A DNA stretch of 64,000 nucleotides from Roseithermus sacchariphilus (GTDB lineage: Bacteria > Bacteroidota > Rhodothermia > Rhodothermales > MEBIC09517), in contig CP030158.1 of assembly GCA_003285105.1 (NCBI GenBank), positions 1,039,447 to 1,103,446 of the forward strand. The letters are read 5' to 3'. The notes beneath the pieces were generated by a model. That model saw nothing but the letters and a program-made list of their open reading frames with translations. It was not told the origin of the DNA and did not search any database. How positions within the stretch are numbered: position 1 is the stretch's first letter; each line of letters opens with the position of its first letter. The translations under genes were made by a program, and so were the position numbers. Of this stretch, positions 22,434-40,884 are shown one piece after another.

Positions 22434-24548
22434 TCAGGAGCCGTCAGCCGCCTGCCGGGCGGCATCGCAGCGGGGAGCGAGGGCGGTAGCCTCGTCGTAG
22501 CGGTCGGCCTTGTGGAGGGCTTCGAGGAGGAAGCCGCAGACGGTCGTGTCGGTCGGGTCGGCTTCGAAGCGGGCCTGCCAGCGGGCAATGAGCAGGGCGA
22601 GGCCTCCCTGCGCTCGGTAGAGCCGGAGGAGACGCCGGAAGCCATCCGGGTCGTCCGGGGCCAGGGTATGGAAGCGTTCGGCAGCCAGCAGCGCCGCGCG
22701 GTCGTCGCCCCGGGCTTCATGCAGCGTGGCGAGCAGCCGGTGGGCCTCGGGCAAGGCTGGCGTGAGCGCGGCGGCCTGATCGGCCAGGGCGAGCGCGCGG
22801 GCGGTATCCCCCTGAGCCAGGTGGTAGCGGCCGACCAGCAGATGCAGCGTGCCGGAGGTGGGATACGCCGCGAGGAGGCGGCGGTGGACGGCCTCGGCGG
22901 TCGAGGCCGGGCACGCCGGGGCGATCTCCGCGAAGGCGTCGGCGGCGAGCGTGTTGGCTTGTTCCAGACGGTCGCGGGTCAGGTCGGGCCGGGCCGTCAG
23001 CGACGGGTCGGCGAAGCGCTGCTCCAGCGTGCGGTGGGCGGCCTGCTGCTGCCGGTCGAGGGCTTGCAGGGCCCGGGTGGCCGCTGTCGTTGCGAGCACG
23101 CACGCCTGCTCCATCCGCCCGTCTGCCCGGGCCAGGACGGCGAGCCGGTACACCGGGAACGCCTGCGTCGAGTCTTCGGCCAGGGCCTGCCGGTACGCGC
23201 GGGCCGCCCGCTCCGGCGCCTGCGTCTGCTCCAGCACATGGCCGAGGCGGGCATAGGCGTCGGCGGTCGGGGCCGTGGCGAGGAGGGCTTCGTAAGCCGC
23301 CTCGGCCGCCTCCCAGCGGGCCATGGCCTCCAGCACCCGGGCGCGGCCCGCCAGCAGGTCCGCGTCCGCCGGACGCAGCGCCAGACCCTCGTCGTACGCA
23401 TCCAGCGCGGCGCGCAGGCTGTCCTGCTGCTCGTAGGTCTGGCCGATCAGGTAGAGGCTCGTGGCGCGGTCGCCGGTGAGGGTGGCCAGCGTGTCATACG
23501 TGGCGCGGGCAGCGTCCCACTCCTCCTGCCAGACGCGCACGCGGGCCAGGCGGCGCAGCACCTCGTCCTCCTCGGGGAAATGACGGCGCATGTACTGGAG
23601 GATGTTCTCCACCCCTTTCAGGTTGAGCGCGCGCAGCTGGGCTTCGATGTAGGCGTCGTAGACCGACCGCTCGGTCGGGTGGCGACGCAGGAGCGTCTCG
23701 AAGACGCCGAGGGCCTTCAGCCGCTGCTGACTGGCGAGCAGCACCTGCGCATAGGCCAGGCCGATGGCGGGATCGTCGGGACGCAACGCGTAGAGCGCTT
23801 CGTAGGGAGCGAGGAGTTCGTCGAGTCGATCCAGCTGGAGAAGGGCCGCCGCCTGGAAGCGCAGCAGTCGCTCGGACTCCGGGAAGTGCGCCAGGCCACG
23901 CTCGGCGGCGGTCAGCGCGGCGGCGGCGTCCTGCTGCTCCAGCAGGAGAAAGGCGAGGTTGGCATGCACGTCTTCCACGTCGGGCGCCCGCGTGCGCGCC
24001 TCCCGGTAGGCCTGCACGGCCGCTTCGAGATCACCCGCCTCGTACGCCGCGCTCCCGGCGACCTGCAGCAGGTCGGCCACGCGGCGGCGGGCCCGGGCGT
24101 AGGTCAGGCCCGGAATCGAGGCACCGGCCCGCAGGCGATCTTCGACCGCCCGATAGCGCGCGAGGGCCTCGTCGACCCGCTCCTCCTGGACGAGCGCCTC
24201 CGCGCCGAGCTGGAGCAGATGGGCGTCGTCCGGGAAGACACGGCGGCCGCGGTCGGCGATGGCACGCGCCCGGGCGGGCTGCCCGGCACGGAGATAGGCG
24301 AGGGCCAGGCCCGTGTAGGCCTCGCGCCGGAGCGAATCCCGACGCAGCGCCTCCTGCAGCAGCGGAATCGCCCCGGCATCGGCCCCTTCGTCCAGCAACC
24401 GGAGCCCCGCCTCGAGCGGCGTCGGCGTCTGCGCCCGGAGGGGCGAGGCACCGGGCAGGAGCAGGGCCAGCATCCAGGCGGTGAGCAGCGTGCGAAGCAC
24501 CATCGACAGAACATCCATACGAAACCACCCCACGAGGCGACGAAGCAA
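22434..24548 (-). CDS. Exported TPR-repeat protein
   Basis: The protein has 704 residues from ATG 24548; the internal ATG codons at 24518 and 24503 give a cleaner signal peptide (MVLRTLLTAWMLALLL…LRAQ) and are equally plausible. The rest is nearly all tetratricopeptide repeats from about residue 45 to 690, with the A-x-x-x-Y/L-x-x-A-L-x-x-x-P pattern recurring every 34 residues (AIPLLQEALRRDS, AVQAYREARTRAP, ALDAYDEGLALRP, AARAYRQALAEDS, RALALADQAAALTP). Such arrays are protein-binding scaffolds; after export this one would sit in the periplasm or on the outer-membrane inner face. It begins 12 bp after the FN3 gene on the same strand and is the last gene of the barrel/giant/FN3/TPR unit. It may assist surface assembly of the giant protein; that role is inferred from context alone. 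Confidence 0.88.
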   Translation of the reverse strand: MLRRLVGWFRMDVLSMVLRTLLTAWMLALLLPGASPLRAQTPTPLEAGLRLLDEGADAGAIPLLQEALRRDSLRREAYTGLALAYLRAGQPARARAIADRGRRVFPDDAHLLQLGAEALVQEERVDEALARYRAVEDRLRAGASIPGLTYARARRRVADLLQVAGSAAYEAGDLEAAVQAYREARTRAPDVEDVHANLAFLLLEQQDAAAALTAAERGLAHFPESERLLRFQAAALLQLDRLDELLAPYEALYALRPDDPAIGLAYAQVLLASQQRLKALGVFETLLRRHPTERSVYDAYIEAQLRALNLKGVENILQYMRRHFPEEDEVLRRLARVRVWQEEWDAARATYDTLATLTGDRATSLYLIGQTYEQQDSLRAALDAYDEGLALRPADADLLAGRARVLEAMARWEAAEAAYEALLATAPTADAYARLGHVLEQTQAPERAARAYRQALAEDSTQAFPVYRLAVLARADGRMEQACVLATTAATRALQALDRQQQAAHRTLEQRFADPSLTARPDLTRDRLEQANTLAADAFAEIAPACPASTAEAVHRRLLAAYPTSGTLHLLVGRYHLAQGDTARALALADQAAALTPALPEAHRLLATLHEARGDDRAALLAAERFHTLAPDDPDGFRRLLRLYRAQGGLALLIARWQARFEADPTDTTVCGFLLEALHKADRYDEATALAPRCDAARQAADGS

Positions 24549-24560
24549 CGCGACGACGTA

Positions 24561-26615
24561 TCAGGGACGGCGACCGCGCGGCGGCCCGGCCTGCGTGCGG
24601 GTGCTGGCACGGCCCTCCTGGCCGGACGTGTCCACGGCTCGGACCCGGTACCACCAGCCGGCGTTCCCCGCCGGATCGGTCCAGGCCGGTTCGGGGAGCA
24701 GGCCATCGTGCGCGGGGACGTAGGCTCCGGTGGCCGTCTCGGCGCGCTCCACGCGGTACCCGGCCAGGTCCGCAACCGGCACGGCTTCCCAGACGAGCCG
24801 GACACCGTCCGGCCCGGCCTGTGCCTGGACGTTGCGCACGGGCGGCGGGGGGCTCGCATCGCGCATCCGAAGTGTATCGGGAGGAGACGGCGGGCTCACG
24901 TTGCCGAGCGAGTCGATGGCGACGACGTGGTAGACGTACGTACGCCCCGGCACGACGTCCTCGTCGCGCGTGTAGCGGGGAGCCGTCCCGAGGCGCGCCA
25001 CCACCGTGTCCGCGTCCGGCCCGGGCTGCACTCTCCGGCGCACCTCGTAGGCCGTCACGTCCCCGGACGTCGAGGCATTCCACGTCAGCCGGGCGCGCAC
25101 GCCATCCTCCACGGTGGCGCGGAGAAAGCCCGGCGCCGCAGGCGGGGTACGATCGGGGATCTGGAGGCGGACGAAGGCGGTGTCGCTGACGTTGCCGGCG
25201 CTGTCGGCCGCGGCTACGCCGTAGTGGTACACGGCCCCCTCGGCAAAGGCGGCTCCTGCCACGCCCCGGTCGATGAGCAAGGTGTCCCGCAGGGCCGCGC
25301 CGTTGAGCTGGGCGAAGGCGTTGGGAGGGGGCGGGGCGTTGCCGGTGAGGCGCCGGCGGAGGACGACGTATGTGGCCAGGTCGGCCGCGGGCGCGGGGAC
25401 GTGCCAGGAGACCTGCACGCTGCCGTCGTCCAGCGCGACGGCGCGGGCGGCGGCAGGCGGGGGCGGCGGCTCGGTGTCCTCCACCAGCGCGCTCGCGGCG
25501 TTGCTGCGCGGGCTCTCGTTGCCGCTGGCATCCACCGCCGTGACGGCGTACTGGTACTGCCGGCCGGGGCGGGTCGTGGTATCCACGTAGATCGGCTGGA
25601 GGACGTCCAGCAGCGAGTCCGTCAGCATGCGCCACGGGCCGGTGCTGCGCGGGGCGCGATAGACCCGGTACCCGGCCGCGTCCGGCTCGATGCTCACCGG
25701 CCAGGTGACCTCCACCGTCCGATCCGGCAAGACGCGGGTGCGGACGTCCCGCACGAGGGCGGGCGGGACGTTGTCCTCGACGGTGTAGGTGAGCACCTCG
25801 CCGGGGGCGCTGGCCTGCCCGGTGATGTCTACCGCCACCACGTACAGCGCGTAGGTCGTACCGAGGGTGGGGACGGTGAAGGTGTGGGCGAACTCGGTGG
25901 CGCCGCGGGTGCGCGCCAGCGCCTGCGCATGGACACGGACGACCTCGTCGCTGCCGGGCTGGCTCCGGTACACGTCGAACCGGATCACGTAGTCGTCCGC
26001 CGCCCGGTCGAAGGCCGGGTAGGTCCACCGGAGCGTCACCTGCGCGCCGGTGTGGGAAGCCCCCTCGATGGTCGGCGGTGCCGGGCGCTGCGGCGTGAGC
26101 GCCACCGTCGCCTCCACGGGATCCCCCGCAGGCTCCCCCCGGTCGTCGACGGGCTGGAGACGGTAGGTGACGGTCTGGCCGGGTGTGGCCGTCGTGTCGA
26201 TGAACAGCCGGCCCAGGGCCTGACCCACCTCCGGGTAGGTAAAGCTGAGCAACAGGTTCAGGTCGCGGCGTGTCTGGAGGCGCAGGAGCGTCCCCTGCGG
26301 CGAGGTGGCCCCGACGGCCTCAGCCACCACGGCGTACCGCCCCCCGATGCGGGCGGCGAAGGTAGGCCCGTCCGGCGCAGCATGGAGAGGCACCTCGGTG
26401 AGCGGCACGAAGGCGTCCGCACCGGCGTCCCGGCGGGCCACCGTCACCCCGTAGCCCGGCGGCAGCGGAAGGCCGTGGTAGACGTACACGTCACCGTCTG
26501 CCTGCGTCGCCACGCGCAGAGCCGGCGGAGCGTCCTGCGCCGCCGCCGGAGAACCAGCCAGCAGGACGAGCAGACCGGCCAGTAACAGAGATACGCGGAA
26601 AAAAACCATGAGCAT
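24561..26615 (-). CDS. Exported fibronectin type III multi-domain protein
   Basis: The 684-residue protein starts at MLMVFFRVSLLLAGLLV with a signal peptide ending AAAQ. The frame continues upstream but there encodes Arg-rich nonsense antiphase to the giant gene, so ATG 26615 (or 26609) is chosen. After an N-terminal domain of about 110 residues it contains about five FN3-like domains. The clearest repeat is PPA…VRDVRTRVL…VEVTWPVS…GYRVYRAPRSTGPW…YQYAVTAVDASGNESPRS, and later copies close with AVDSAGNVS-, AIDSLGNVS- or AVDTSGQEG-like motifs. There is no T9SS sorting domain and no enzyme motif. It follows the 4141-residue TANFOR-like gene after 134 bp and precedes the TPR gene by 12 bp. Similar FN3 proteins are, from memory, common next to TANFOR-domain genes in Bacteroidota, which supports one functional unit. 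Confidence 0.88.
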   Translation of the reverse strand: MLMVFFRVSLLLAGLLVLLAGSPAAAQDAPPALRVATQADGDVYVYHGLPLPPGYGVTVARRDAGADAFVPLTEVPLHAAPDGPTFAARIGGRYAVVAEAVGATSPQGTLLRLQTRRDLNLLLSFTYPEVGQALGRLFIDTTATPGQTVTYRLQPVDDRGEPAGDPVEATVALTPQRPAPPTIEGASHTGAQVTLRWTYPAFDRAADDYVIRFDVYRSQPGSDEVVRVHAQALARTRGATEFAHTFTVPTLGTTYALYVVAVDITGQASAPGEVLTYTVEDNVPPALVRDVRTRVLPDRTVEVTWPVSIEPDAAGYRVYRAPRSTGPWRMLTDSLLDVLQPIYVDTTTRPGRQYQYAVTAVDASGNESPRSNAASALVEDTEPPPPPAAARAVALDDGSVQVSWHVPAPAADLATYVVLRRRLTGNAPPPPNAFAQLNGAALRDTLLIDRGVAGAAFAEGAVYHYGVAAADSAGNVSDTAFVRLQIPDRTPPAAPGFLRATVEDGVRARLTWNASTSGDVTAYEVRRRVQPGPDADTVVARLGTAPRYTRDEDVVPGRTYVYHVVAIDSLGNVSPPSPPDTLRMRDASPPPPVRNVQAQAGPDGVRLVWEAVPVADLAGYRVERAETATGAYVPAHDGLLPEPAWTDPAGNAGWWYRVRAVDTSGQEGRASTRTQAGPPRGRRP

Positions 26616-26639
26616 CGAACCACATCGGCGGGGGCAGAC

Positions 26640-26678
26640 GGGAGGCGGCGCCGTACACGACGCCTCCCCTGTATCATA
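26640..26678 (-). promoter_or_regulatory. Stem-loop and weak promoter-like box between giant gene and FN3 gene
   Basis: In the 134-bp gap GGGAGGCG (26640-26647) pairs with CGCCTCCC (26661-26668) around a 13-nt loop. No T-tract follows on the minus strand, so it is not a standard terminator. Just upstream on the same strand lies TATGAT (26678-26673), close to a -10 box but without a good -35. It may set separate expression of the FN3-TPR pair, or process the transcript. Confidence 0.35.
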
Positions 26679-26749
26679 ACGCAAAATGGCGCGGCAACCG
26701 GACACGCTCCCGCCCTTTTCCCGGCATCCCGGCATCGCCTCTGGCGGCG

Positions 26750-29700
26750 TCAGAACCGCGGCAGCGTGAGGGGAGGCAAGGCGGCACCGCCCTCGTACGT
26801 GATGTCCCGCCGCACATCCCGGAACGTCAGCCGCTGCCAGGTGACGGTCTGCCGGCCCACGGCGTTGGTGACGCGGATGCCCACGCGCAGCTCCAGCAGG
26901 TTCGAGACGCCGCTGACGTCCACCGTCCGCGCGTGGGACGTCGGCGAAGTCAGCGGCGTGCCGACGCTCCGGAAGGTCTTCCACGGGTGCGGATCGTACG
27001 TAAAGTCGTTCGGATCGTCGAGCTGGTAATGGACGGCCACCACGCCCGACTCCGGATCGTACAGGTTGCTCCCTTCGATGGTGAGTTGCCCGCCATCGAG
27101 CGACAGCCGTACCGACGGGGCCGGCGGCGGCGAGCCGTCGCGAACGAACGGCCCCGTGCAACTCACCGCCGACGTCTGCCCCTGCGTGTTGACGGCGCGG
27201 ACGCAGACGTAGAGCCGCCCATCGACGAGGTCGCTCTGCGGAATCCGGATGAACGGCGCCGGGTTGCCCAGGTTGTTGAAGATCGCCGCGAGGTGGTGGT
27301 TGTTCTGCCAGGCCACGTCCACCGTGCCGCCGGTGGGCCAGGGGCGGACGTCCGTACCGCCGGGCGAGGTGCCGATGGCGTACTGGTAGCCCGCCAGGTT
27401 CGTCTCCGGGTCGAACGAAAGCGTCGGCACATAGACGCGGACGGCCCCCAGCGCCGTCCAGCCCTGCACCCCGGGGCGCGTCGGTGCCGTCGGGTCCTTC
27501 GGCACGAGCGGCCCGAGCGTGAGCACCCCGCTGGCGGACTGCGCATGGTTGACGGCGCGGACGTGGACGTACAGCTCGTCGTCGAAGTCGCGTAGCAGGT
27601 TGTTGTACCGGTTCGGCCCGCCGACGAGCGTGACGGACGTGCTGGTCGTCTCGTAGCGCAGGCGGGGCGAGGTGAAGCAGTCCTCGGGCCGTTCGGGGCG
27701 TTCGCTCAGGCAGTACTCGTAGCGCCACAGGCCGGACTCCTCATCCGTCGAGGCCGTCCAGGAAGCCGTCACCTGCGGCACCCGGTCGGTTTCGATGGCC
27801 GCGTTGTAGGCGTCGATCTCCGCGCTGCTGGTCAGTCCCTGGCCGGAGAGGCTCGTCAGCGGCGGCGGCGTGGTACTCGGCGGCGTCACCGGCGGGGTCG
27901 TCGGGAAGAGGTACGGAGGGAACGACGTGAAGCGGTAGGCGGGCGACGGATCCGAGGGCGGCGTCGGGTCGAAGACGACGCCCTTCTGATCGGCGGTGAC
28001 CGGGCTGGTCAGCCCCGCGCCGTTGGTGACGCGGACGCTGACGTAGTAGGGCTGACCGGGTTGCAGGCCGATGAAGCGCGTCTGCGCGTCGAGGTTGACC
28101 AGCGAGGGATCCCCGACCTCGCGCCCGCGGGTGCCCTGGAGCGAGGTCCACGCGATCACATCCGTGCCGCCGGCCGTCGTGCCCACGGCGTACTCGAAGC
28201 CCGTGATGTCAGACTCGTCGTCGCGGGCGATCACGAAGAGGCGGATCGTCTGGTCCGTGTTCGTCCAGTAGCGCTCGCGCGTCACCGGCAGGAAGATGCG
28301 GGCGTTGTTGAAGCCGTCCACGGGAACGAACTCGGTCCGGCTGGTGGATTCATAGAACGCGTCCAGCGCCAGGATCGGGGCGGCAGGAGGCGAGGCGTCC
28401 TGCACCTCGATGGCGCTTCCGCCGGGCGTGCCGGTGCCACCGGGGGCCACGGCCATCTCGAACTCCCCGCGCCGGATGGCGGTGTTGCCGGCCGGGCCAC
28501 GCACGCGGATGCCCACGCTGTAGCGCACGGACGCATAGGCCTGCTCCACCGCGGCGGCGTTCGGGTCGCTCGGACGGGGAGCGGCGCGCTTGTAGTCGAT
28601 CACGTTCACGCTCGTCCGGCTCCCCACCGAGAGGTACTCCGTGATCCCCTCGGCGATGGTTTCCGTGTCGGCATCGCCATAGGGCTCGAGCTGGTAGCTG
28701 GCCTCGGCCACCGCCAGCGGGTGCTGCGCCGTCCAGTCCAGCCGCGTCGTGTTGAAGTACTGCTGCCGCTGCGGCGTGGCGCGGATGCCGGCGATGGTCG
28801 GCGGCGCGAGCGCGTCCTCCAGGCGGCTGCGCTGCTGGCGATAGGCGGCCACGAGCGAGTCGGTGGGCTCGGTGAAGTAGCTGCGCCAGGTGACGTAGTT
28901 GTCCACCATGCCGTAGAGCGTGGCGACGAGGGACGCCTTGGAGGCGTAGACCTGCTCCATGAGGTCGGTGGCGTCGCCGTAGGTCGAGCGGAGGGGCTGC
29001 AGGGCCTGCCGGCGCTGGTCGCTCACGCCGTCCGGGCCGCTGACGCGGCGGGCCACCTGGTAGGCCGCCTCGGGCAGGCCGAGGTCGTGGATGTCGTACC
29101 AGAGCGCCTGCACCTGGTCGCGGACGTTCTGCACGGCGGCCTGGCGGATGGACGTGCGCGCCGACGGCGCGGTGTTGCTGTCGTGGTAATCGTCGTAGGA
29201 CTGCCGCAGGCCGTCGTAGTAGTCCAGCAACTCCTGCGGGCTGCTGAAGTCCGAGCGCTGCGGGGGGCGGGTGTAGGGAGGCAGCGCGCTGAGGGCCAGG
29301 TCGTCCCGCAGGGCCAGCACCATCTGGAAGCGCCGGGCCGCGTTGCCGGCCGCCCGCGGGTACTGGCGGCCCTGGCTCGTGTTCGGCGCGGCGTCGAACA
29401 CCTGCACGAACCGGTTCGTGATCGAGTTGATGCTGGTCTGGATCGACGCGGTGTTGGTGCGGAGCTGACCGTGCAGCCCCAGCAGCCAGGCCCGGCGGTT
29501 CCATTCCCGGTTCGCCAGGCGGGCATAGTAAGCCTCCATCGCCTCGATGGCCCGTGAGTACGTCGCCGCCATGCCGTTCACGCTCGGCTCGATCTCGATG
29601 CCGGCGATGCGAATCGGCGGAACGATGAAACGGCCGTCCGCGACCGGGGCGGTGTCCATCTGCGTCAGGCGGACCTGCGCGGCCAGGAGCTGGTCGATCT

Positions 29701-32700
29701 CATCGACGTTGGCCGCCAGGTCGGCGATGGAGGTGCGGAAGGCCTCGTCGAGCGCGGCCAGCTCCCCGCGGAGCTGGTCCGTGGCCCCCGCCTGCTGCGC
29801 CGCCAGCGCCTCGTCCACGTCGAACGACGGCGAACGGGTGATCGGCCCGGTCGTGTCCGGGCGGACGACGCTCCGGACGGGCGACTGCGCCAGGGCGGCC
29901 AGCATGTCGTCGAAGGCCTGCTCGGCCTGGCTCTCGAAGCGGACGGCGCGCTGCACGGCCGTGCTCAGGCGCGGCAGCACGACGTCGGCCGTCTGCTCGG
30001 CGGCGGCCACGGCGTCCAGCGCGCGCTGGCGGGCCGCCTCGGGAGAGAGGGCGTCGCTGGCCAGGATGGCCTCGTACGTCGGGCGGGCGTTCCAGATCTG
30101 GTTGTAGACCGTCAGGAAGCCCGCGCCGTAGAAGCCCTGCTCGATCTGAACCGCCCTGGCGCCCCAGGCCTGACGGTCTTCGAGGCTCATCAGATAGAGG
30201 CGCGCGCCCGCCCGGCGAAGGTCCGCCGCGGAGAGGGCGAAGCTCGGCATCGGCTGGGGCTGGGAGAGGGCGTCCTTGGCCGCCTGGAGCTGGGCCCGCA
30301 GGTCCTCGATGCGCTGGCGGAACCGATCGCGCTGGGCCTCGGCCCGATCCACCAGATCCCCGTGCGAGCCGGAGCCCAGGCCGCCGTCCACGCCGTCGTT
30401 CGAGAACGATGCCCACGCCGAGACGCAGGCCTCATCCAGGAGCAGATCCACACAGCCCTTGACGGCCGCAAACAGCTCGAAGCCGCTGGGGCGCCGCGTG
30501 ACGAAGGCCGCCCGCGCCTCCGCGGTGATGCAGATGCCCGCGCAGGCCTCGGCCTCGAACGTCACGTACGCCCCGAAGGGCATGCTGAAGTTCGGGTCGT
30601 CGATCAACCAGATCGACCCCCGCACCTCGCTCTCGACCTTGAGCACGGGAATCCCGACCTCGAAGCCGAGGCCCGCCTCCAGCAGGAAGCCGTCGGCGCA
30701 GGCCAGGAACTCGCCGTCCGCCGTGACGATGCCACCGTAGACGCCCACCTCCAGATGGCCGATCACGCCCCAGAGGAGCGCCCCGTTGTGCTCGCCCATG
30801 AAGAAGTTGAGGTGGCTCGTCCCGTCGATGGTGGCGGGGACGTTGATGGAGACGATGACGCCCGCATCGAGGAAGAACGGATCGAAGATGACGGCGGCGT
30901 ACATACCGGCCTCCAGGCGCGTCCCGGCGATGGCGTTCTCGCCGTCCAGCCCGAGCACGGTGCCGCGCACGTCCAGGTAGAGGTTCTGGTTGGAGAGTTG
31001 CAGGAACGTCTGCCCTTCGACCACGAACTGCCCGGCCGACCCGCCGATGCCGATCTGCGCGTAGAGCATCATCGCGAACGAGAGGTCGGCGGCGCGGGGC
31101 GGGCCGCCGGGGCGCACGGGGGTGTAGTTGAAGCCGGGCGTGGCGAGCACGTCCACGACCTGGTCCAGGTCCTCCTGCACGGGCTTGTAGAAGAAGCCGC
31201 CGCCGGCCCCGTTGAGTTCGATGATGCCGGGGATGAGCGGGATGCCGGGCCGCGCGGAGGCCGCCACGAACAGCCCGAAGCTGAGTTCGTTGTCCCGGTT
31301 GGCGAACGTCCCGGCCACGGCCGCCGCCACCTGCGTGCCGCCGAAGTCGAACATACCCGCCCCCGCGGCCCGCAGCAGGAAGCCGTCCGGGCCGTTCTCG
31401 TAGGCCATGCTGGCCGTCAGGGCGAAGTGGTTGCCCACGGCCATGCTCACGTTGTCGATGCTGAGGAAGCGGGTGCCGTCGGTTTCGGTATAGAAGAGCA
31501 CCCGCTCGATGCCGCCGGAGAAGCCGCCGCTGTCGCCGTTGCCCGCCCCGCCGAGGGAGATCCGGAGCGCATCGCGCCCGCCGCCCGGCGCGGCGGTGCC
31601 GTCCAGGATCTGGTCGCAGGGACCGAAGCAGAGCACCTCGGTGACGGAGACCTGGCGCGTCGGGGTGGCGACGGCCCCCGTGCCGTCACCGGCGCGGGCC
31701 TCCAGGTCCTGCGGGCCGTCGCCGGTGCCGTCGGGCAGGGAGATGGTGAAGCCGCTCGGGTCCTCGCGGTGCCCGAAGCGGCCCAGCTCCAGCGTGACGA
31801 AGCTCATGAGCTGGAGCGACCCCGAGCCGGTGAGGTTGCCGATGTCCTCGACGCCGTCGGCCGTGACGGTGAAGCCTTCGTAGTCCAGCTCCCCGCTGAC
31901 GCCGGCCACGCGCAACCCGGCCGTGCCGCCCAGGACCACGCGGAAGGCCTCCTGGTCGGACACCGCCGCGTTGGCCGCGATGCGGATGGTGAAGAAGCTG
32001 TGGTCGAAGCTAAAGGCGGCATTGCCCGTGGCGTTGTACTGGAGCCGCGGGAAGGTCGAGGGCGAGAAGCCGAGGCCGGGGTTGTTGGGGAAGTTGGCGT
32101 CGTCGCCGAAGCGGATGCGGTCCTGCCCGGCGATGCGCACCACCCCGTTGGCGTAGACGCCGGAGCGCACGGGATCCATCACGTCCAGCGAGACGCCCAC
32201 GCGCGTCAGGCGGAACTCCGCGAAGTCGCCCAGCGGCACGGTCTGGTTGACGTCGAACGACGGCCCGGTGGTGGTCACGTCCACCTGTCCGCCCGCGCCG
32301 CGCCGGAGGCGGATCGTGGCGTCGGCGGTGGACGCGACGGGCTCGGGCAGGGTCACGCGCACGCCGGCCTCCAGCGCCAGCGCCCCGTCGGCGTTGGAGA
32401 GCGCCAGCGACCGGAGGACGACGTACTGCTCCAGCAGTTCGATGTCGTTCGTCTCGATCTGCCCGAAGGTGAACGAGCCGTCGGAGCCGATGGCGAGGCC
32501 CTGGTAGGCGATCGTCTCATCCATGAAGGTGAGGTCGCCGTCGCTCGAGGCGACGCGCAGCACGCGGCCGTCCACGGCCAGCGTCGGCTGGCGGATGGTG
32601 CCGGTGACGGCGTCGTCGAAGAGCGCGAAGTGCTGATCCGGCAGGGTCACGGCGTCGAGCGCGAAGAGCGGCTGCGGCGTGCTCTGCAGGCCGGTGACGC

Positions 32701-35700
32701 CCACCGCGAGGCCATCCACGGTCACCTCCAGCGGCTCGCCCACGAGGTTCTCGAACGAGAGCACCCCGTCGACCGCCACGCGGAAGGCGTCATCCGTCAC
32801 GGTCACCTCGAACGGGTCGACCGGGTTCGGCGTGAGGTCGGCCAGGCCGAGCGGGAGGGTCGGAGGCAGCGCGGCGGCGTCGAGGGCGAAGGTCCAGGCG
32901 TCCTGTTCGAAGGCGGCCGCGTAGAAGATCGGCACCGGCGAGCCGGCATCGTCGGCCAGGAGCGTGCTGGAGAGGGTGCCGGAGAGCGCCAGGCGCTTCG
33001 TCGCGCCCACCTCCAGCTCCATGCCCATGACGTCGAGCGTGAAGGCGTCGGGCTGGTTCGCGCCCGGGAGCGTCCCCCCGAAGGTGTAGCGGAAGGCCGG
33101 CGGCAGCGTGGCGTCGTGGTGGGTGGTGTAGGTGCCCACCGTCACACGGCCGTCGGCGAGGCCGGCGGCGGTGAGCCGGGCCGAGGCGGTGAGGGGCGGG
33201 GCGTTCGCGGCGCCGGTGGCCGGCGGCAGGTCCACCCGCACCTCCGCCTCCAGCTCGGCGAACCCGCCGGTGCCGTCGAGCGTGAGGCGGGTGAGCGTCA
33301 GCGGCAGCCCGAGCGCCGGGCGCAGGTCGGCGGGCGTCTCCAGCGTGACCGAGCCGCCGGTGGGCGTGTAGGTGGCGTCCGTGGTCAGGTCGAAGGCGAC
33401 GAGCGCCGTCGGCGGCGGGCCGTTGCCGTCGCCGAGCCCGGCCAGCACCAGCGGCAGCGGCGCCCCCTGCGTGCCGAGCGTGTAGCCCCCCGTGGAGGGG
33501 TTCTCCTGCACGTCGATCAGCGGCTGCCCCTGTGCGTCCTTGAGGACCACGTAGGCGACGTCCCGCGTCGGCAGCCCGAGGGTGTCCGGCAGGATCGCCA
33601 GCACGCCGCCGCCGATGCGGAAGCCGTTCTGGTCGAGCACGGCCAGCGGCTCGGTGGCGGGCGTGGCGCCCTCGTCGAGGTAGAACGCAGCCCGCCCCTG
33701 CCGCACCCCGAAGACGCCCGGGTTCAGGGCGAAGTCGTTCTCGAAGACGAGCCGCAGCGACGGGTACACCGTGCCGCCGAAGCGGATGAAGGCGGTGCCG
33801 GTGCCGCTGAAGACGAGGCCGCGGCTGTCCAGCGTGAGCGCCGAGCCGAACGTCAGGCGGGCGGCGTCGCCCGCGGGCAGCGGGGCGGTGGCCGCCACCA
33901 GATCGAGCCTCAGCGGCTGCAGGGCGATCTCGGCGCCCACGCCCGCGTCGATGGTGGCGCTGCCCCCGGCGATGCGGAAGTCGTCCAGCCCGAGCAGCAG
34001 GTCGTTGAACTGGACGTCGACGGCGGCCGGGTCGACGTCCAGCGTGCCCTGTGCCTGAAGCCGCAGGCCGGCGGCGCTGAGCTCGGCCCGGGTGACGGTG
34101 AAGGCGAAGAGCGGGTCCGACCCGCCGCCCGTCGGCCAGTCCAGCCGGAAGGGGTCCTCGATCTGCACCGCGCCGCCCGCGAGCGTCCCCTGCAAGAGAT
34201 CGATGCGGAGCGAGCCGGTGGCCGTCGTCGGCGTCGTCGGAGACGTGCCGGGCAGGGTCACCGTGACGCTCCCGTCGAGGAGGGCCGTCTGCGCGTCGTT
34301 CGAGAAGCCGAACGTGAGCGTGGAGGAGGCCACCGCGACGGCCACGGGGCCGAAGGTGAGCGCACCGCACGGGGCGAAGTTGCTCACCGTGCCTTCAAAT
34401 CCGCGCCCGCCGTCGACCAGGCCGAGGCTGAAGGTGAGCGGCTGCGGGCAGGCCGCCGGGTCGTCGACCGTGAAGCCGGGCAGGGCCTCCAGCGTCCCCT
34501 CCACACGCAGGTCGATGCCCTGCGCGGGGCCGCCGGGGGTGTCCAGGCGGACGAGCCCGCCGGTGAGGCGGGAGACGAGCAGCTCGGGCGCGTCGGCCGC
34601 CGGGCGGCGGAGCGGGACGGGCACGGGGCTCAGCGGCGAGAACGGCGTCACAGAGCCCGTCAGGATGCCGTCGGCGAGGCCCACGTCGGTCAGCGTGAAG
34701 CCGTCGGGGGGGACGAGGCCGGTGTCGTCCAGGGCGGGCAGACGCAGCGCCAGGTCGAGGCGCGGGTCGAGCGCGAGGTCCACGTCGAAGCCCCGGTACC
34801 AGTCGACCGTCACCGGGCCGCCGGTGCGGAGCGCCAGCGGCTCCAGCTCGACGCCCCCGAGCGTGAAGGGCGGCCGGTGCAGGCCGGGCACGGAGCTGCG
34901 GCTGATGTCCTGCGCGGGGATCGTGAGCCCGTCGTCGCGGATCTCGACGCCGTGGAGCGGGAACGTGACGCGCTCGCCGCCGGCCAGCGGCACCTCCAGG
35001 TCGAGGTCGAGCTGGAGGGCGAAGTCGAAGCCCCGCGTGGGCGAGTAGGTGAACACCGGCAGCGCGGTCAGCGCCTCCAGCCGGAGGGCGAACGCGCCGA
35101 GGTCGAGGCCGGGCGGGTCGGCGAGCAGCTCGGGCTGGAAGCGCGTGACGGCCAGGTCGTGGGGGGTGGCCTGGAGGGTCATCTCGGCGGCGGCCGCCGG
35201 GCCGCCGGCGCCGTTGACGGCCAGGCGGGCGTCCGCCGTGAGGGCGAAGGTGGCCGGGCCGGGGGCCGTCGGCAGCAGCGGCACGTCGGCGGTGCCCTGC
35301 ACCTGCTCGACGGTCAGCGTGACGCGGTCGCTGCCGGGCACGAGCTGGATCGGCGCGTCGAGGCCCGTCAGGTCGAACACCCCGCGGGCCACGCCGTCGC
35401 TCTGCACGTAGAGCGCGGCCTCGCCCTGGCGGTCCACCGCCTCGCCGAAGAGCAGCAGATCGCCCTTCAGGAACAGCGCCGCGAGGGTCTGGTCCCCCAC
35501 CTGCCCGGCGCCGAACAGGATCTCGGTGAGCCGGATCGGCGCGCCCTCGTCGGTGAGGTCGAAGGCCGGATCGTCCGCCGGCACGGTGGCCGTCAGCGTA
35601 CCGGAGACCCACTCGGGGTTGGACGGGTTGGCGCGGATGCGGACGTCGTTGAGCGCCACGGGCAGGCGCGGCGGGTCGACCGGGTCGAGGGCGGGCAGGA

Positions 35701-38700
35701 CGAGCTCCAGCGGCGTGTCCGGGCGCGTGGCGATCCGCACGGTGCCGTCCCCGCCGTCGGTCACGTCCACCAGCAGCCGGTCGTTCTCCCGGAGCGTGAG
35801 GTAGGCGATGGCCTCGGTGGGCAGCGGCAGGCGGTCCGGCACGAGCGCGTCGGCCAGGATGGCGGGGTCCGGGTGGAAGCCCGTCTCGTCGATGTAGGCC
35901 AGCCGCGCCTCGTCCCAGAGCAGATCCGCCCGCCCGCGCCGGACGCCGAAACGCGGGTAGAGCCCGAAGGCGAAGTCCTCGGTGAAGTCGACGGCGACGC
36001 CCTCGGCGTAGCTCTCGCCGTCGTAGGCCAGCGCGGCGGCGGCGCGGCCGCTGGTGTGCAGGCCGGTCGAGTCCAGCACGACGGTGCCGCCCAGTTCGAG
36101 GTAGACGCCGGGGTCGAGCGTGCGCTCGGAGCCGGTGGCGAGGGCGCGGAAGTCGAGGGCGCCGGTGGCCGGGTCGATGCCCGCTTCGAGGGCGAAGGGC
36201 TGGTCGAAGAGGGCGCGGCCGCCCAGGATGCGCTGCGTCTCCAGGTCGATCCGCAGGTTGTCGAAGGTGACGCCCAGCGGGTCGGGGCCGAGCCGGAGGG
36301 TCTGACGGCCGTCGACGAGGAAGCCGTCCTCGGAGAGCTCCGCCCGTTCGAGGCGGAAGGTGAGCACCGGGTCGTCGGCGGGCACGGCCCAGTCGAAGGG
36401 CTCATCCAGCCGGAAGTTGACGTTCAGGAACTCACCCGTGACGAGGTCGAGCGTGAAGGTGCCGCGGACGGGGGTGCCGTCGGGGAGGGAGAGCACGGCG
36501 TCGGCGTCCAGGTAGGCGCGCTGGCCGAGGGCCATGGCGTACTCGAAGCGCAGCGTGGAGCGCTCCACGGCCACCTCGAACGGCCCGAGCCTGACGGGGC
36601 ACGAGGGCACGACCGGCGCGACGGTGCCGTTGAGGCCGTGCTCGACCGCCAGGTCGGCCCCGCCCAGGTCGGCCGCTTCGGTACCGGCGCAGGTGAACGG
36701 CTCGCCCACTTCCAGGGCGGCCTGAAGGGCAACGTACCCGTCGTGCTTGAACACGTCCCGCTCTTCCAGGTAGACGCCGTTGAAGCGACCGGCGACGGCG
36801 CGGATGACGAGCGCATAGCCGCTCTCGCCGAAGGCCCAGCGGCACGGCCCCACGTCCTTCGCCTCGATGTCGCCCCGCATCGCGGCGCCCTCCACGCGGC
36901 CCCCGATCAGGCGGAACGAGGCGTTGGCCAGGCAGGCGGGCAGGTCCGGCGAGTCCGGCAGCGTGACCTCGGCCTCGAAGGCCAGGTCCCAGGGGCCGGG
37001 CCCGATGCGGTCCACGTCGAAGAACGGGAAGGTGAAGCCGTTCAGGCGGAGCTGCGTCAGCCGCACGCCGAAGCCGTCGACGTCGAAGGGCGTACCGGGG
37101 AGCTGCGCGCCGGAGAGGTCGAGCGCGGGCAGGGTGAGGCCGTCCGTGCCGAGGCGCAGGCCGGACAGGCGCGGCAGGCGGAGGTCCCCGAAGGCGGGGA
37201 TGCGCAGCGCGGCGTCGAGCGCGAGGGCGACGTCCCAGCCGGCCGCGGGGGTGTAGGTGAGCGTCTCCAGCCGGAGGTTCTCGATGCCGAGGCGGACGAG
37301 CCCGAGGTCGAGTTCGGGGTCGGGCCGCGGGCAGTCCGGGGCCGCCCGGACGAGGGAGAAGCCCGCCTCGTCCGAGAGGGCGGCGGTGGCGTCCAGGCCA
37401 CAGGCCGGGGCGTTGGCGGGCTGCAGGTGGACCCCTCCGCGCACGGTGAGGTCATACCCGAGCGTCTGATCCGCGTCGATCGAGAACGTGCCGGAGAGGC
37501 GATCCACCCCGAAGGTGAGCCGGTCCGAGCCGTCCACGAGCGGCAGCACGGCCTCCGGTTCGCAGTCGAGCCCGACCGTGGCGGCCTCCCCGGACAGCGT
37601 CAGCGTGGGCGCCGGGCAGCGGACCTCGCCCTCGCCGGGCCCGTGGAAGGCGTGGACGGTGCCGGCTCCGGTGATCGGGCCGCCCGGGAAGCTCGCCTGG
37701 AGGCGCGTGACCTCCAGCCGCACGAGGTCGTCGCCCAGGGTTGCCAGCGGACGCCCCTCGGCCTCCAGCGTGCCGAACAGCCCGCTCCGCGTGAGCCGCA
37801 GGTCGCCCCGGGCACGGATGGTTTCGCCGGCCAGGCGGAGGTCGGCGGAGGCGGTGAAGCCCTCGCCGAAGCGCCAGCCGAGGCCGGTCAGCCGCAGCGA
37901 CCCGGCCTCCGGCACCGGCAGCGCCGGCACGTCCCCCGCCTCCAGGGCGCCTCCCAGGACGACGGGCGTGCCCAGCCCGGTCTTCTGGATCTCCAGGTCG
38001 ATCAGCTCGACCGTCAGCCGCGTGGGCGCCTCGAAGGTCAGCTCCAGCGTAGCCTCCCCGTTGAAGACGTAGCTCGTCGCCGTCTCGGTCACCGTCACGT
38101 CGCCGAACTCGAGGAAGCGGCTGAGGTCATCGAGGCGGGCGAAGCCGGGCTCCAGCACGATGGCCCCGAGGGACGCGAGCGACTCGCCGGGGCCGTCGAT
38201 GGGCGTATAGATGAAGGTATAGACCTCGCTCCGGCCGTCGTTCGTGAACGGCAGGCTGTCGTCCGCCGCGCGGGCGGTGACCTGCCAGGCGTAGCGGGCG
38301 CCCTCGCGCAGGGGCAGCAGATCCGGGGTGTAGGTGAAGGAGGTCTGCCCCGTCAGCGACGCCGTGGCGTGCGCCCGGTTGGCCTGTAGCGCCTGGAGCG
38401 GCGTCTGGCCCGGCAGCACCTCCACCAGCAGGACGTCGTAGACGATGGGCACCGTGGCGGGTGCCGTCACGGGCGTCCACGAGAAGATGGGATAGGCCTG
38501 GCCCACGAGCGCCCCGTCGGCCGGGGTGAAGAGCAGCGGGGGCTGCGCGTACTGGACGCTGAAGACCACCGTGGCCGGCAGCGTCGTGATCAGCGGGTTG
38601 TCTTCGGCCAGCGGCTCCAGCGTGAGCGTGTAGAGCCCTTCGGGAAGCGCACCCGTCTGCCGGACTGCATCGCGCAGGTCCGGGGGAAGCTGGTCGTAGA

Positions 38701-39175
38701 GGTCTTCGATCCGGTCGGCGAAGCGGACGGCGGGCTCGTCGCGCAGGGTACGGTAGGTGTAGACGCCGGGCAGGAAGGAGGTCGGCTCCGAGGTGGTCTC
38801 GGCCAGCACCTGGCCGTCTTTCTCCAGCACGAACCGGAAGCGGAAGGTCTGGGGCGCGGCCGAGGGCTGCGTGAAGAGGAACTGGATGGGGTAGCGTCCC
38901 TGCCGGTAGGCCTGCACCTGATCGGCCACGAGGGGCGAGCGGAGTATGGGCGGCACGCCGGAGACGATCACCTGGGCGGTGCCCTGTGCCAGGGCCTCGG
39001 GCACCCCGCACAGGCCGAGCAGGAGCAACAGGCCCGGCACGCCTCTGCGGAGGAACGCCGTCCGGCGAACGAGCAGAAAAGAGACGACGAGCCTCATCAG
39101 AGGGACGAACCCGTCCCCCCGGCCGGACGCAACCGGCGGGCGATGAAACCAGGCAGAACGACGGACGACAGGCAT
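26750..39175 (-). CDS. Giant TANFOR-like exported protein
   Basis: The protein has 4141 residues. The ATG at 39175 overlaps the barrel gene stop (TGATG), favouring coupled translation, but ATG 39097 (MRLVVSFLL) would give a more normal signal peptide; both end at ALAQ. Residues about 65-215 resemble the TANFOR domain: VIVSGVPPILRSPLVADQV, then FRFVLEKDGQVL, a SFLPGVYTY strand and LPEGLYTLTLEPL. PPLLFTPADGALV and YPIFSWTPVT follow. About 2600 residues of repetitive beta-strand sequence come next, with many GL-x-L/DGLTLPA-like turns and LDLGLVRLGIENL motifs. Residues about 2650-2940 are strongly beta and Gly-rich. Residues about 2942-3460 are helical (DLVDRAEAQRDRFRQRIEDL). The last 680 residues are FN3-like with GTTAGGTDV and GTSPGGTDV repeats. 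There is no sorting domain; the C-terminus is LTLPRF. The molecular role is unknown. Confidence 0.85.
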   Translation of the reverse strand: MPVVRRSAWFHRPPVASGRGDGFVPLMRLVVSFLLVRRTAFLRRGVPGLLLLLGLCGVPEALAQGTAQVIVSGVPPILRSPLVADQVQAYRQGRYPIQFLFTQPSAAPQTFRFRFVLEKDGQVLAETTSEPTSFLPGVYTYRTLRDEPAVRFADRIEDLYDQLPPDLRDAVRQTGALPEGLYTLTLEPLAEDNPLITTLPATVVFSVQYAQPPLLFTPADGALVGQAYPIFSWTPVTAPATVPIVYDVLLVEVLPGQTPLQALQANRAHATASLTGQTSFTYTPDLLPLREGARYAWQVTARAADDSLPFTNDGRSEVYTFIYTPIDGPGESLASLGAIVLEPGFARLDDLSRFLEFGDVTVTETATSYVFNGEATLELTFEAPTRLTVELIDLEIQKTGLGTPVVLGGALEAGDVPALPVPEAGSLRLTGLGWRFGEGFTASADLRLAGETIRARGDLRLTRSGLFGTLEAEGRPLATLGDDLVRLEVTRLQASFPGGPITGAGTVHAFHGPGEGEVRCPAPTLTLSGEAATVGLDCEPEAVLPLVDGSDRLTFGVDRLSGTFSIDADQTLGYDLTVRGGVHLQPANAPACGLDATAALSDEAGFSLVRAAPDCPRPDPELDLGLVRLGIENLRLETLTYTPAAGWDVALALDAALRIPAFGDLRLPRLSGLRLGTDGLTLPALDLSGAQLPGTPFDVDGFGVRLTQLRLNGFTFPFFDVDRIGPGPWDLAFEAEVTLPDSPDLPACLANASFRLIGGRVEGAAMRGDIEAKDVGPCRWAFGESGYALVIRAVAGRFNGVYLEERDVFKHDGYVALQAALEVGEPFTCAGTEAADLGGADLAVEHGLNGTVAPVVPSCPVRLGPFEVAVERSTLRFEYAMALGQRAYLDADAVLSLPDGTPVRGTFTLDLVTGEFLNVNFRLDEPFDWAVPADDPVLTFRLERAELSEDGFLVDGRQTLRLGPDPLGVTFDNLRIDLETQRILGGRALFDQPFALEAGIDPATGALDFRALATGSERTLDPGVYLELGGTVVLDSTGLHTSGRAAAALAYDGESYAEGVAVDFTEDFAFGLYPRFGVRRGRADLLWDEARLAYIDETGFHPDPAILADALVPDRLPLPTEAIAYLTLRENDRLLVDVTDGGDGTVRIATRPDTPLELVLPALDPVDPPRLPVALNDVRIRANPSNPEWVSGTLTATVPADDPAFDLTDEGAPIRLTEILFGAGQVGDQTLAALFLKGDLLLFGEAVDRQGEAALYVQSDGVARGVFDLTGLDAPIQLVPGSDRVTLTVEQVQGTADVPLLPTAPGPATFALTADARLAVNGAGGPAAAAEMTLQATPHDLAVTRFQPELLADPPGLDLGAFALRLEALTALPVFTYSPTRGFDFALQLDLDLEVPLAGGERVTFPLHGVEIRDDGLTIPAQDISRSSVPGLHRPPFTLGGVELEPLALRTGGPVTVDWYRGFDVDLALDPRLDLALRLPALDDTGLVPPDGFTLTDVGLADGILTGSVTPFSPLSPVPVPLRRPAADAPELLVSRLTGGLVRLDTPGGPAQGIDLRVEGTLEALPGFTVDDPAACPQPLTFSLGLVDGGRGFEGTVSNFAPCGALTFGPVAVAVASSTLTFGFSNDAQTALLDGSVTVTLPGTSPTTPTTATGSLRIDLLQGTLAGGAVQIEDPFRLDWPTGGGSDPLFAFTVTRAELSAAGLRLQAQGTLDVDPAAVDVQFNDLLLGLDDFRIAGGSATIDAGVGAEIALQPLRLDLVAATAPLPAGDAARLTFGSALTLDSRGLVFSGTGTAFIRFGGTVYPSLRLVFENDFALNPGVFGVRQGRAAFYLDEGATPATEPLAVLDQNGFRIGGGVLAILPDTLGLPTRDVAYVVLKDAQGQPLIDVQENPSTGGYTLGTQGAPLPLVLAGLGDGNGPPPTALVAFDLTTDATYTPTGGSVTLETPADLRPALGLPLTLTRLTLDGTGGFAELEAEVRVDLPPATGAANAPPLTASARLTAAGLADGRVTVGTYTTHHDATLPPAFRYTFGGTLPGANQPDAFTLDVMGMELEVGATKRLALSGTLSSTLLADDAGSPVPIFYAAAFEQDAWTFALDAAALPPTLPLGLADLTPNPVDPFEVTVTDDAFRVAVDGVLSFENLVGEPLEVTVDGLAVGVTGLQSTPQPLFALDAVTLPDQHFALFDDAVTGTIRQPTLAVDGRVLRVASSDGDLTFMDETIAYQGLAIGSDGSFTFGQIETNDIELLEQYVVLRSLALSNADGALALEAGVRVTLPEPVASTADATIRLRRGAGGQVDVTTTGPSFDVNQTVPLGDFAEFRLTRVGVSLDVMDPVRSGVYANGVVRIAGQDRIRFGDDANFPNNPGLGFSPSTFPRLQYNATGNAAFSFDHSFFTIRIAANAAVSDQEAFRVVLGGTAGLRVAGVSGELDYEGFTVTADGVEDIGNLTGSGSLQLMSFVTLELGRFGHREDPSGFTISLPDGTGDGPQDLEARAGDGTGAVATPTRQVSVTEVLCFGPCDQILDGTAAPGGGRDALRISLGGAGNGDSGGFSGGIERVLFYTETDGTRFLSIDNVSMAVGNHFALTASMAYENGPDGFLLRAAGAGMFDFGGTQVAAAVAGTFANRDNELSFGLFVAASARPGIPLIPGIIELNGAGGGFFYKPVQEDLDQVVDVLATPGFNYTPVRPGGPPRAADLSFAMMLYAQIGIGGSAGQFVVEGQTFLQLSNQNLYLDVRGTVLGLDGENAIAGTRLEAGMYAAVIFDPFFLDAGVIVSINVPATIDGTSHLNFFMGEHNGALLWGVIGHLEVGVYGGIVTADGEFLACADGFLLEAGLGFEVGIPVLKVESEVRGSIWLIDDPNFSMPFGAYVTFEAEACAGICITAEARAAFVTRRPSGFELFAAVKGCVDLLLDEACVSAWASFSNDGVDGGLGSGSHGDLVDRAEAQRDRFRQRIEDLRAQLQAAKDALSQPQPMPSFALSAADLRRAGARLYLMSLEDRQAWGARAVQIEQGFYGAGFLTVYNQIWNARPTYEAILASDALSPEAARQRALDAVAAAEQTADVVLPRLSTAVQRAVRFESQAEQAFDDMLAALAQSPVRSVVRPDTTGPITRSPSFDVDEALAAQQAGATDQLRGELAALDEAFRTSIADLAANVDEIDQLLAAQVRLTQMDTAPVADGRFIVPPIRIAGIEIEPSVNGMAATYSRAIEAMEAYYARLANREWNRRAWLLGLHGQLRTNTASIQTSINSITNRFVQVFDAAPNTSQGRQYPRAAGNAARRFQMVLALRDDLALSALPPYTRPPQRSDFSSPQELLDYYDGLRQSYDDYHDSNTAPSARTSIRQAAVQNVRDQVQALWYDIHDLGLPEAAYQVARRVSGPDGVSDQRRQALQPLRSTYGDATDLMEQVYASKASLVATLYGMVDNYVTWRSYFTEPTDSLVAAYRQQRSRLEDALAPPTIAGIRATPQRQQYFNTTRLDWTAQHPLAVAEASYQLEPYGDADTETIAEGITEYLSVGSRTSVNVIDYKRAAPRPSDPNAAAVEQAYASVRYSVGIRVRGPAGNTAIRRGEFEMAVAPGGTGTPGGSAIEVQDASPPAAPILALDAFYESTSRTEFVPVDGFNNARIFLPVTRERYWTNTDQTIRLFVIARDDESDITGFEYAVGTTAGGTDVIAWTSLQGTRGREVGDPSLVNLDAQTRFIGLQPGQPYYVSVRVTNGAGLTSPVTADQKGVVFDPTPPSDPSPAYRFTSFPPYLFPTTPPVTPPSTTPPPLTSLSGQGLTSSAEIDAYNAAIETDRVPQVTASWTASTDEESGLWRYEYCLSERPERPEDCFTSPRLRYETTSTSVTLVGGPNRYNNLLRDFDDELYVHVRAVNHAQSASGVLTLGPLVPKDPTAPTRPGVQGWTALGAVRVYVPTLSFDPETNLAGYQYAIGTSPGGTDVRPWPTGGTVDVAWQNNHHLAAIFNNLGNPAPFIRIPQSDLVDGRLYVCVRAVNTQGQTSAVSCTGPFVRDGSPPPAPSVRLSLDGGQLTIEGSNLYDPESGVVAVHYQLDDPNDFTYDPHPWKTFRSVGTPLTSPTSHARTVDVSGVSNLLELRVGIRVTNAVGRQTVTWQRLTFRDVRRDITYEGGAALPPLTLPRF

Positions 39176-40884
39176 CAGAAACGGTATTCGTAGCGCAACG
39201 TGGCCTGCCCTTCGCTGAACGCATCGCCCAGGTCGGGTCGGTTGCGCAGGCCGCGCAGGTTGAGACGGAGTGTGGTGGCCCCGGGGAAGCGATAGGACAC
39301 ATTCAGCGCCGTCATGAGCTGCGACGAGACGGAGGGCACGGGGCCGTCGGCCAGATGGATGGTGGCATCGCTGCGGGACCAGCCGCCGGTGAGCGAGAGG
39401 TTGAGCGCGCCGAGCGTGTAGCCCCCTCCCAGGTTCGCCCCCAGCACGGTCAGCTCGCTCATGGCGGCGTCGCTGCGGACGAGGTTGCCCGCGGCGGTGA
39501 GCGACAGGCCCGAGGGGAGTTGCACGGCGTAGCCGAGCGTTGCCGAGGCGTTGTCGATGGTGTTGGCCGGGCGGAGCCCCCGTTCCACGGCCAGGCTGCG
39601 GTCGGCGGAAGTCTGGTAGGTGCCCGCCAGCGACACGGTGTGCGTCAGGGCGCCGCCGGTGAGCGTCAGTACCGGGGCAAGCATCACCGTCTGCGCCACC
39701 TGCTCCAGGTCGAGGCGCTCGGCGTCGGCCGTGGCGGCGGGCGTGTTGCGGTTGCTCAGGCGCGTGTAGCTGCTGCTCACGGCCAGCGAACTCGAGAGCC
39801 GGGCCTGGGCCGTCAGCCCGATCTGCGTGCGGGTGAGCGTGGCCAGGAGCTGATCCGCCAGGTTGTTGCGGGCGCGGCTGAAGGAGCCGCCGAGGACGAG
39901 CCGCCCATCCAGCAGACGGGCCCGCGGCTGCACGCGGACGGTCTCCTGGTCGGGCCGCAGACGCTCGACGCCGAGCGACTGAAAGCCGGGCTGCACGCGG
40001 CTGTAGCCGAGCAGCAGATCCACCACGCGGAGGGCCAGGCGCAGGTCGCCGCCGCCGGCGTAGTCCAGGCTGGTGCCCTCGCGCGGGGTGAAGAAGGGGT
40101 CGAAGAAGGCCGGCACGGCCTCGCCGGCGTCGAGGGCGTCGTTGCGGGTGTCCGGGGTGAAGGCCGAGGCCGTCACCTCCCCCTGCAGGCGCACGCGCCC
40201 GCCCAGGAGCCGCAGCCCGCCGTCGGCGGTCAGGGTCAGGTTCTCGACCGGGGCGAGGTCGCCGGCACGGTCGATGGAAGAGGCCAGATCCCGCCCGTAG
40301 AGGCCGATGAGGTGCAGGTGGGTACGCCGGGCCTCACCCACCCCGAGGCGACCGCCGTAGAGCATCCGCCGGTACGAAGGCTCCCGGAATCCCTCCCCCT
40401 CGCTGAAGTCCACCGCCCGGCGGGCCCGCCCCGCCACCACGCCCAGCAACACCGGCCCCGGCGACCATTCCACGTACCCCCCGCGCACCGTGGCCCCGCT
40501 GAGGCTGTATTCGGAGAACGTCGGGCTGACGTCCCCGGCAGCCACCCGCCCCGACGCCCAGCGCGTGTCGAAGGCGAGGCGGTTGACGTTCTGGCGCAGG
40601 CGCGACTGGTCGGTCGAGTAGGTCAGGTTGAGGCCGGAGCGGAGGCCGTAGAGGTTGAACGACAGGTTGGCGAACGCCTCGGCGTTGGTCGGCGCGCGGC
40701 GGTTGGCGATGCCGGCGGCCGTGTAGGCCTGCGTCGCCAGCCCGAACGAGCCGTTCAGCCGGAGCGGTCCGAGATCGACCTGCGCGCGAACGGGGCACGC
40801 CAGCCCCAGCGCCACCCCGAGCAGCACCGACCACCACACCGGCCGGCCGGAGATCAACAGCAACTGACGGAACGAATGCGGCAT
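39175..40884 (-). CDS. Outer-membrane beta-barrel protein (partner of the TANFOR-like giant)
   Basis: The 569-residue protein starts at MPHSFRQLLLISG with a signal peptide ending CPVRAQ; the upstream in-frame extension is rich in Cys/Gly/Pro and not credible. The mature protein consists almost wholly of alternating hydrophobic strands with short turns (LRLNGSFGLATQAY, LNLTYSTDQSRLRQ, VLLGVVAGRARRAV, LRLALRVVDLLLGYSRV, TLRYEYRF) and ends in aromatic Phe, the usual outer-membrane insertion signal. The early block SPTFSEYSLSGATVRGGYVEW followed by VAGRARRAVDF resembles the family found beside TANFOR genes, where a NPQFS-type box precedes a GxGVEL-type strand (comparison from memory). It is the first gene of the minus-strand unit, and its stop overlaps the ATG of the giant gene. 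It is probably the channel, anchor or docking platform for that protein. Confidence 0.85.
   Translation of the reverse strand: MPHSFRQLLLISGRPVWWSVLLGVALGLACPVRAQVDLGPLRLNGSFGLATQAYTAAGIANRRAPTNAEAFANLSFNLYGLRSGLNLTYSTDQSRLRQNVNRLAFDTRWASGRVAAGDVSPTFSEYSLSGATVRGGYVEWSPGPVLLGVVAGRARRAVDFSEGEGFREPSYRRMLYGGRLGVGEARRTHLHLIGLYGRDLASSIDRAGDLAPVENLTLTADGGLRLLGGRVRLQGEVTASAFTPDTRNDALDAGEAVPAFFDPFFTPREGTSLDYAGGGDLRLALRVVDLLLGYSRVQPGFQSLGVERLRPDQETVRVQPRARLLDGRLVLGGSFSRARNNLADQLLATLTRTQIGLTAQARLSSSLAVSSSYTRLSNRNTPAATADAERLDLEQVAQTVMLAPVLTLTGGALTHTVSLAGTYQTSADRSLAVERGLRPANTIDNASATLGYAVQLPSGLSLTAAGNLVRSDAAMSELTVLGANLGGGYTLGALNLSLTGGWSRSDATIHLADGPVPSVSSQLMTALNVSYRFPGATTLRLNLRGLRNRPDLGDAFSEGQATLRYEYRF

Follow-up and report, generated by a model that had tools for sequence, protein, structure and literature searches.

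An outer-membrane beta-barrel paired, and possibly working, with TANFOR-like giant proteins in Roseithermus and other Bacteroidota

We describe a cassette of four minus-strand genes in a 64,000-nucleotide stretch of the Roseithermus sacchariphilus genome (contig CP030158.1, positions 1,039,447 to 1,103,446; hereafter the window), encoding in order an outer-membrane beta-barrel, a giant protein with a TANFOR-like N-terminal domain, an FN3-family protein, and a TPR protein. In our judgment the barrel is probably, though far from certainly, a dedicated outer-membrane partner that docks the TANFOR-type N-domain, keeping the giant at the outer membrane or letting it cross. The bases for this view are genetic linkage, genomic co-occurrence, homology of the docking domain, the fold predicted for the barrel, signal peptides seen by inspection, the lack of a sorting domain in the giant, and gene fusions; physical docking, the membrane side, export, and the function of the cassette are what we infer.

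Pairing of the barrel with the TANFOR-like domain is not special to this lineage. Genomes were sampled at two levels, 114 from the order and 394 drawn across the Bacteroidota (GTDB sense), and the genome counts are lower bounds because few candidates were scored per genome. The barrel occurs in 25 of the 114 genomes and the giant in 22, mostly in the order barrel, giant, FN3; phylum-wide, 168 of the 394 genomes have the barrel, 146 the TANFOR-like domain, and 132 both, and where the TANFOR-like domain is strong, 87 of 89 genomes also have the barrel. Linkage is seen from either side: i) of 26 loci chosen solely by their barrel, 22 carry a same-strand TANFOR-like or FN3 gene no more than 3 genes away; ii) in loci found with the TANFOR model, the barrel is immediately upstream in four and about 2-11 kb off in another five; and iii) in one genus with three diverged paralogous modules, barrel and giant stay paired in each. 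The FN3-family protein recurs beside barrel or giant in other genomes, and often the TPR protein does too (homologs in the same cassette elsewhere, E 1e-17 to 6e-78), making it a recurrent fourth member; the complete order barrel, giant, FN3, TPR is found in at least six other genomes (G259, G349, G212, G216, G022, and G045). Because the arrangement is conserved in many genomes, it is not due to chance. Of the results named beforehand as refuting the original prediction, none turned up, except that the TANFOR model gives no direct match to the window giant.

The strongest indirect evidence that the TANFOR-like domain and the barrel work jointly is a set of eight single open reading frames (ORFs) of 863-1016 residues (L202, L203, L204, L205, L206, L207, L208, and L209), in which a signal peptide is followed by a TANFOR-like domain and then by a barrel. 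Most of these fusions adjoin a free TANFOR protein, and several also adjoin an FN3-family protein. Since the TANFOR-like domain precedes the barrel in the fusions, we would place it either in the lumen or facing the periplasm.

Association of barrel and TANFOR-like domain has a p-value of 4e-35 even when only genomes positive for SprA of the type IX secretion system (T9SS) are counted, and over 65 directly adjacent barrel-TANFOR pairs the distances of the two partners correlate with r 0.92, as against at most 0.13 in permutations; genome relatedness inflates both the p-value and the distance correlation, and shared ancestry contributes to the latter, which is the first of several points that weigh against a dedicated partnership. 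The others are that i) loci retrieved via the N-domain have the barrel directly upstream in 21 cases, not so in 14, and are cut by a contig end in 3, leaving 14 of 35 informative loci without an adjacent barrel; ii) orphan barrels without a TANFOR neighbor exist (L053, L055, and L056); iii) gene order varies between loci, FN3, TPR, barrel, giant being one alternative; iv) a fusion could reflect joint regulation instead of contact; and v) every one of the 168 barrel genomes has SprA, so that T9SS could be the real exporter. We nonetheless consider that co-occurrence, pairing, and fusions taken together support the proposal that the barrel is the dedicated partner of the giant.

Kinship of the giant's N-terminus to TANFOR proteins emerges from profile comparison and not from the TANFOR model itself. 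TIGR02542 does not match the giant (E<=1) or anything else in its genome, and its curated cut-off is reached in none of the 394 phylum genomes. When the N-domain profile is aligned by hhalign with a profile of TIGR02542-found proteins, however, the match has a probability of 99.8% (E 4.8e-28, 254 columns), and a hidden Markov model of the N-domain matches every TIGR02542-found protein checked with E 1e-25 or better. A fold search with the N-domain returned FN3/Ig tandems, and its profile found nothing among the sequences of solved structures. Judged by its sequence profile, the giant N-domain is a member of the TANFOR superfamily, though one below the TIGR02542 cut-off.

This kinship qualifies the earlier statement that such loci have no assigned function, for relatives of the TANFOR N-terminal domain have been described as polymorphic toxins (PMC7073777). 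Like those toxins (TIGR02542), the giant is large and carries the homologous domain after a Sec signal peptide, and like them it is encoded near FN3 genes in a T9SS-bearing genome; unlike them, the giant has neither a TIGR02542 match, nor a toxin domain, nor an immunity gene. A few TANFOR-type relatives end in toxin-type domains (RES, Col-Pyo_DNase, or LHH), and in Larkinella rosea a barrel gene is directly followed by one for a TANFOR protein with a RES domain at its end. The cassette might accordingly be a polymorphic toxin system in which the giant acts as an antibacterial toxin and has an unrecognized toxin domain at its C-terminus, but we regard this as improbable: FN3-like domains make up the C-terminal end of the window giant, its last 399 residues match no family model, no immunity-like gene lies between the giant and FN3 genes, and orthologs retain nearly the whole giant, unlike proteins with swapped toxin tips. 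The linked barrel goes unmentioned in the domain-based TANFOR survey of Jana et al. (PMC7073777).

The barrel has no family in Pfam or NCBIfam, nor does any model in these libraries match its 26 homologs consistently. An AlphaFold2 model built from 26 aligned sequences (mean confidence, pLDDT, 89) predicts 26 strands, and the predicted secondary structure shows no sign of a separate plug domain. The barrel profile found no relative among the sequences of solved structures; by fold, the closest is MtrB (Z 20.3 over 474 of 535 residues), followed by porins, AlgE, and ushers. Barrel folds are mutually alike, and these matches therefore show only a wide barrel, that is, architecture and not kinship. 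Because similar barrels can share a fold without sharing a function, and because the cassette includes no cytochrome gene, the giant's Cys positions include no CxxCH heme motif, and the barrel has no sequence-family match in Pfam, an MtrB-like sheath of an electron conduit is already disfavored, and we give it next to no credence despite MtrB being the best fold match. The presence of AlgE among the fold matches and a weak PgaA match of the TPR protein would fit a polysaccharide exporter resembling AlgE/AlgK or PgaA, with the giant as a matrix protein; with no glycan synthase seen beside the cassette, and with the barrel linked and fused to TANFOR domains rather than to a synthase, this is very improbable. 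The chaperone-usher barrels FimD and PapC match over about 380 residues (Z about 17), and usher substrates have an Ig-like fold, but the window barrel lacks an usher family match and the usher N- and C-terminal domains, and chaperone or pilin genes are absent. Two-partner secretion (type Vb) offers the likeness of a barrel gene beside a giant with a conserved N-terminal domain. Type Vb barrels have 16 strands and POTRA domains; the window barrel has 26 predicted strands, and neither barrel nor giant has an Omp85, POTRA, or two-partner-secretion match in Pfam. Among the barrel relatives, some are about 800 residues long with an N-terminal stretch of roughly 250 residues that is Ig-like in look, possibly a more distant fusion (L181:4392-6785), and two 818-residue barrels (L144:16067-18523 and L145:2544-5000) carry a mostly helical-looking C-terminal extension of about 250 residues.

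The most substantial rival is that T9SS exports the giant, which the barrel then only picks up or anchors, much as PorP/SprF shuttles handle SprB and other type B substrates. The barrel is found in none of 91 SprA-negative genomes, although many of these belong to a single family (f27); T9SS occurs in over 95% of genomes with TANFOR, and TANFOR genes have SprB/CTD genes as neighbors (PMC7073777), a result reproduced here, with the barrel of family f30 clustered with SprB/CTD, TANFOR, and PKD genes in the arrangement of Jana et al. plus the barrel; and giants with dedicated outer-membrane barrels encoded alongside are already known (PMC9143113, PMC12618676). Indeed, the published guess is that TANFOR toxins leave by T9SS, although its signal is absent from them. 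The window genome (G000) itself has SprA and 88 Por_Secre_tail matches, one on each of the two neighboring window giants, so that a TANFOR-type giant without a sorting domain is unusual. As originally predicted, none is there: neither Por_Secre_tail nor any NCBIfam sorting model matches the C-terminal ~400 residues of the giant or of 40 other TANFOR-type proteins (n=41). PorP/SprF proteins are moreover 14-strand FadL-type barrels serving C-terminal signals, whereas the window barrel has 26 predicted strands and the conserved partner domain is N-terminal, and PorP/SprF models match none of 27 barrels. On balance we hold T9SS export with later collection by the barrel to be doubtful, yet worth serious attention.

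If the barrel is indeed a dedicated partner, the cassette could work as follows. All four proteins would reach the periplasm via Sec; the 26-strand barrel would insert in the outer membrane; the TANFOR-like domain of the giant would dock at the periplasmic side of the barrel or in its lumen; the long beta-rich passenger would then stay at the outer membrane or cross it; and the FN3 and TPR proteins might help from a periplasmic or surface position. Elsewhere in the Bacteroidota, this docking unit carries different passengers, toxin domains included. We wish to stress that a dedicated partnership would accommodate either export by the barrel itself or T9SS export with subsequent anchoring. The bolder proposal, of a new two-partner outer-membrane export or display system across the Bacteroidota, in which the 26-strand barrel recognizes the TANFOR-type domain and passes giants and polymorphic toxins out without a C-terminal T9SS signal, is possible, and we advance it tentatively.

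All four ORFs lie where the original prediction had placed them (Table 1), subject to the longest-ORF rule of gene calling, by which starts and small neighboring genes are approximate. By inspection, each protein opens with a Sec-type signal peptide whose last residues are AQ. Two details of spacing stand only in part. The TGATG in which the barrel stop overlaps the ATG of the giant is present, but the signal peptide of the giant begins at Met27 and close homologs start about there, so that the real start may lie at Met27 and the overlap may go unused; and the FN3 and TPR genes are 12 bp apart only with a TTG start. The giant and FN3 genes are separated by 134 bp. A scan for E. coli-type promoters found nothing, and terminator-like sites are at near-chance level, results that decide neither way on a single transcript.

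Table 1. Features of the barrel-giant-FN3-TPR cassette, in window positions.
Feature	Position	Strand	Basis
Outer-membrane beta-barrel protein, signal peptide and barrel, final residue Phe	39175..40884	-	ORF from 41025; AlphaFold2
Giant protein, 4141 residues, probable true start Met27 at 39097	26750..39175	-	ORF; full-length Balneolaceae orthologs
Giant: probable Sec signal peptide, residues 27-64, end ALAQ/G	38984..39097	-	Sequence reading; homolog starts nearby
Giant: TANFOR-like N-terminal domain, residues 65-327, Ig/FN3-like beta domains	38195..38983	-	hhalign; fold search
Giant: beta-rich body unit 1, residues 541-1224	35504..37555	-	Internal repeat; beta strands in AlphaFold2 model
Giant: beta-rich body unit 2, residues 1273-1970	33266..35359	-	Internal repeat of unit 1
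Giant: helical block, residues about 2931-3420	28916..30385	-	Sequence reading; alpha moment > beta moment at 3001-3400
Giant: C-terminal FN3-like domains	26750..28888	-	Weak fn3 match only
FN3-family partner protein, 684 residues, signal peptide, family-specific N-terminal part	24561..26615	-	fn3 E 1e-18
TPR protein, 704 residues, signal peptide without lipobox, presumably periplasmic	22434..24548	-	TPR E 1e-30

Only the FN3 and TPR proteins of the cassette are recognized by Pfam or NCBIfam; the giant is assigned to no family in either. A scan with the whole giant as a single protein found no relatives, which were retrieved instead with a five-sequence alignment of the N-domain. Besides the barrel, conservation is highest in the N-terminal ~300 residues of the giant (39-47% identity across the order), and Balneolaceae orthologs are 34-37% identical across about 3,700 residues. 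The two body units, of ~700 residues each, are 27-33% identical (E down to 1e-28). That the body forms an AsmA/TamB-like lipid groove was suspected from sequence, found no support in Pfam or the fold search, and is not claimed. Giants elsewhere vary: the last ~150 residues of one (L045:5695-12114) are unlike the usual FN3-like end, match no family, and could be an unrecognized effector domain; some, at L058, L060, L064, L067, and L068, end in a Gly-rich amphipathic beta sequence with a terminal Trp, as in outer-membrane proteins; and two 6.4k-residue TANFOR giants without an adjacent barrel (L076 and L195) come from the same genus as the three orphan barrels.

The cassette is flanked by a convergent gene at 20625-22430, which we take from its sequence to encode a TypA/BipA-like GTPase, and by a divergent gene at 41099-49291 (plus strand) for a 2730-residue T9SS-type surface protein, in which several nearly identical stretches of ~100 residues (start GGAGSA.NK) suggest recent internal duplication. 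The other neighboring giant, at 1781-14158 (minus strand), has 4125 residues with CARDB, PPC, thrombospondin type 3, dockerin-like, and T9SS sorting domains.

Pairing throughout the phylum, together with the fusions, suggests an unrecognized apparatus that holds or exports large surface proteins and some toxins. A dedicated barrel, as indicated by the strong-TANFOR genomes and the eight fusions, would provide a named gene and domain pair bearing on the route by which TANFOR toxins and their giant relatives exit the cell, and would assign a role to a large barrel family unnamed in Pfam and NCBIfam.

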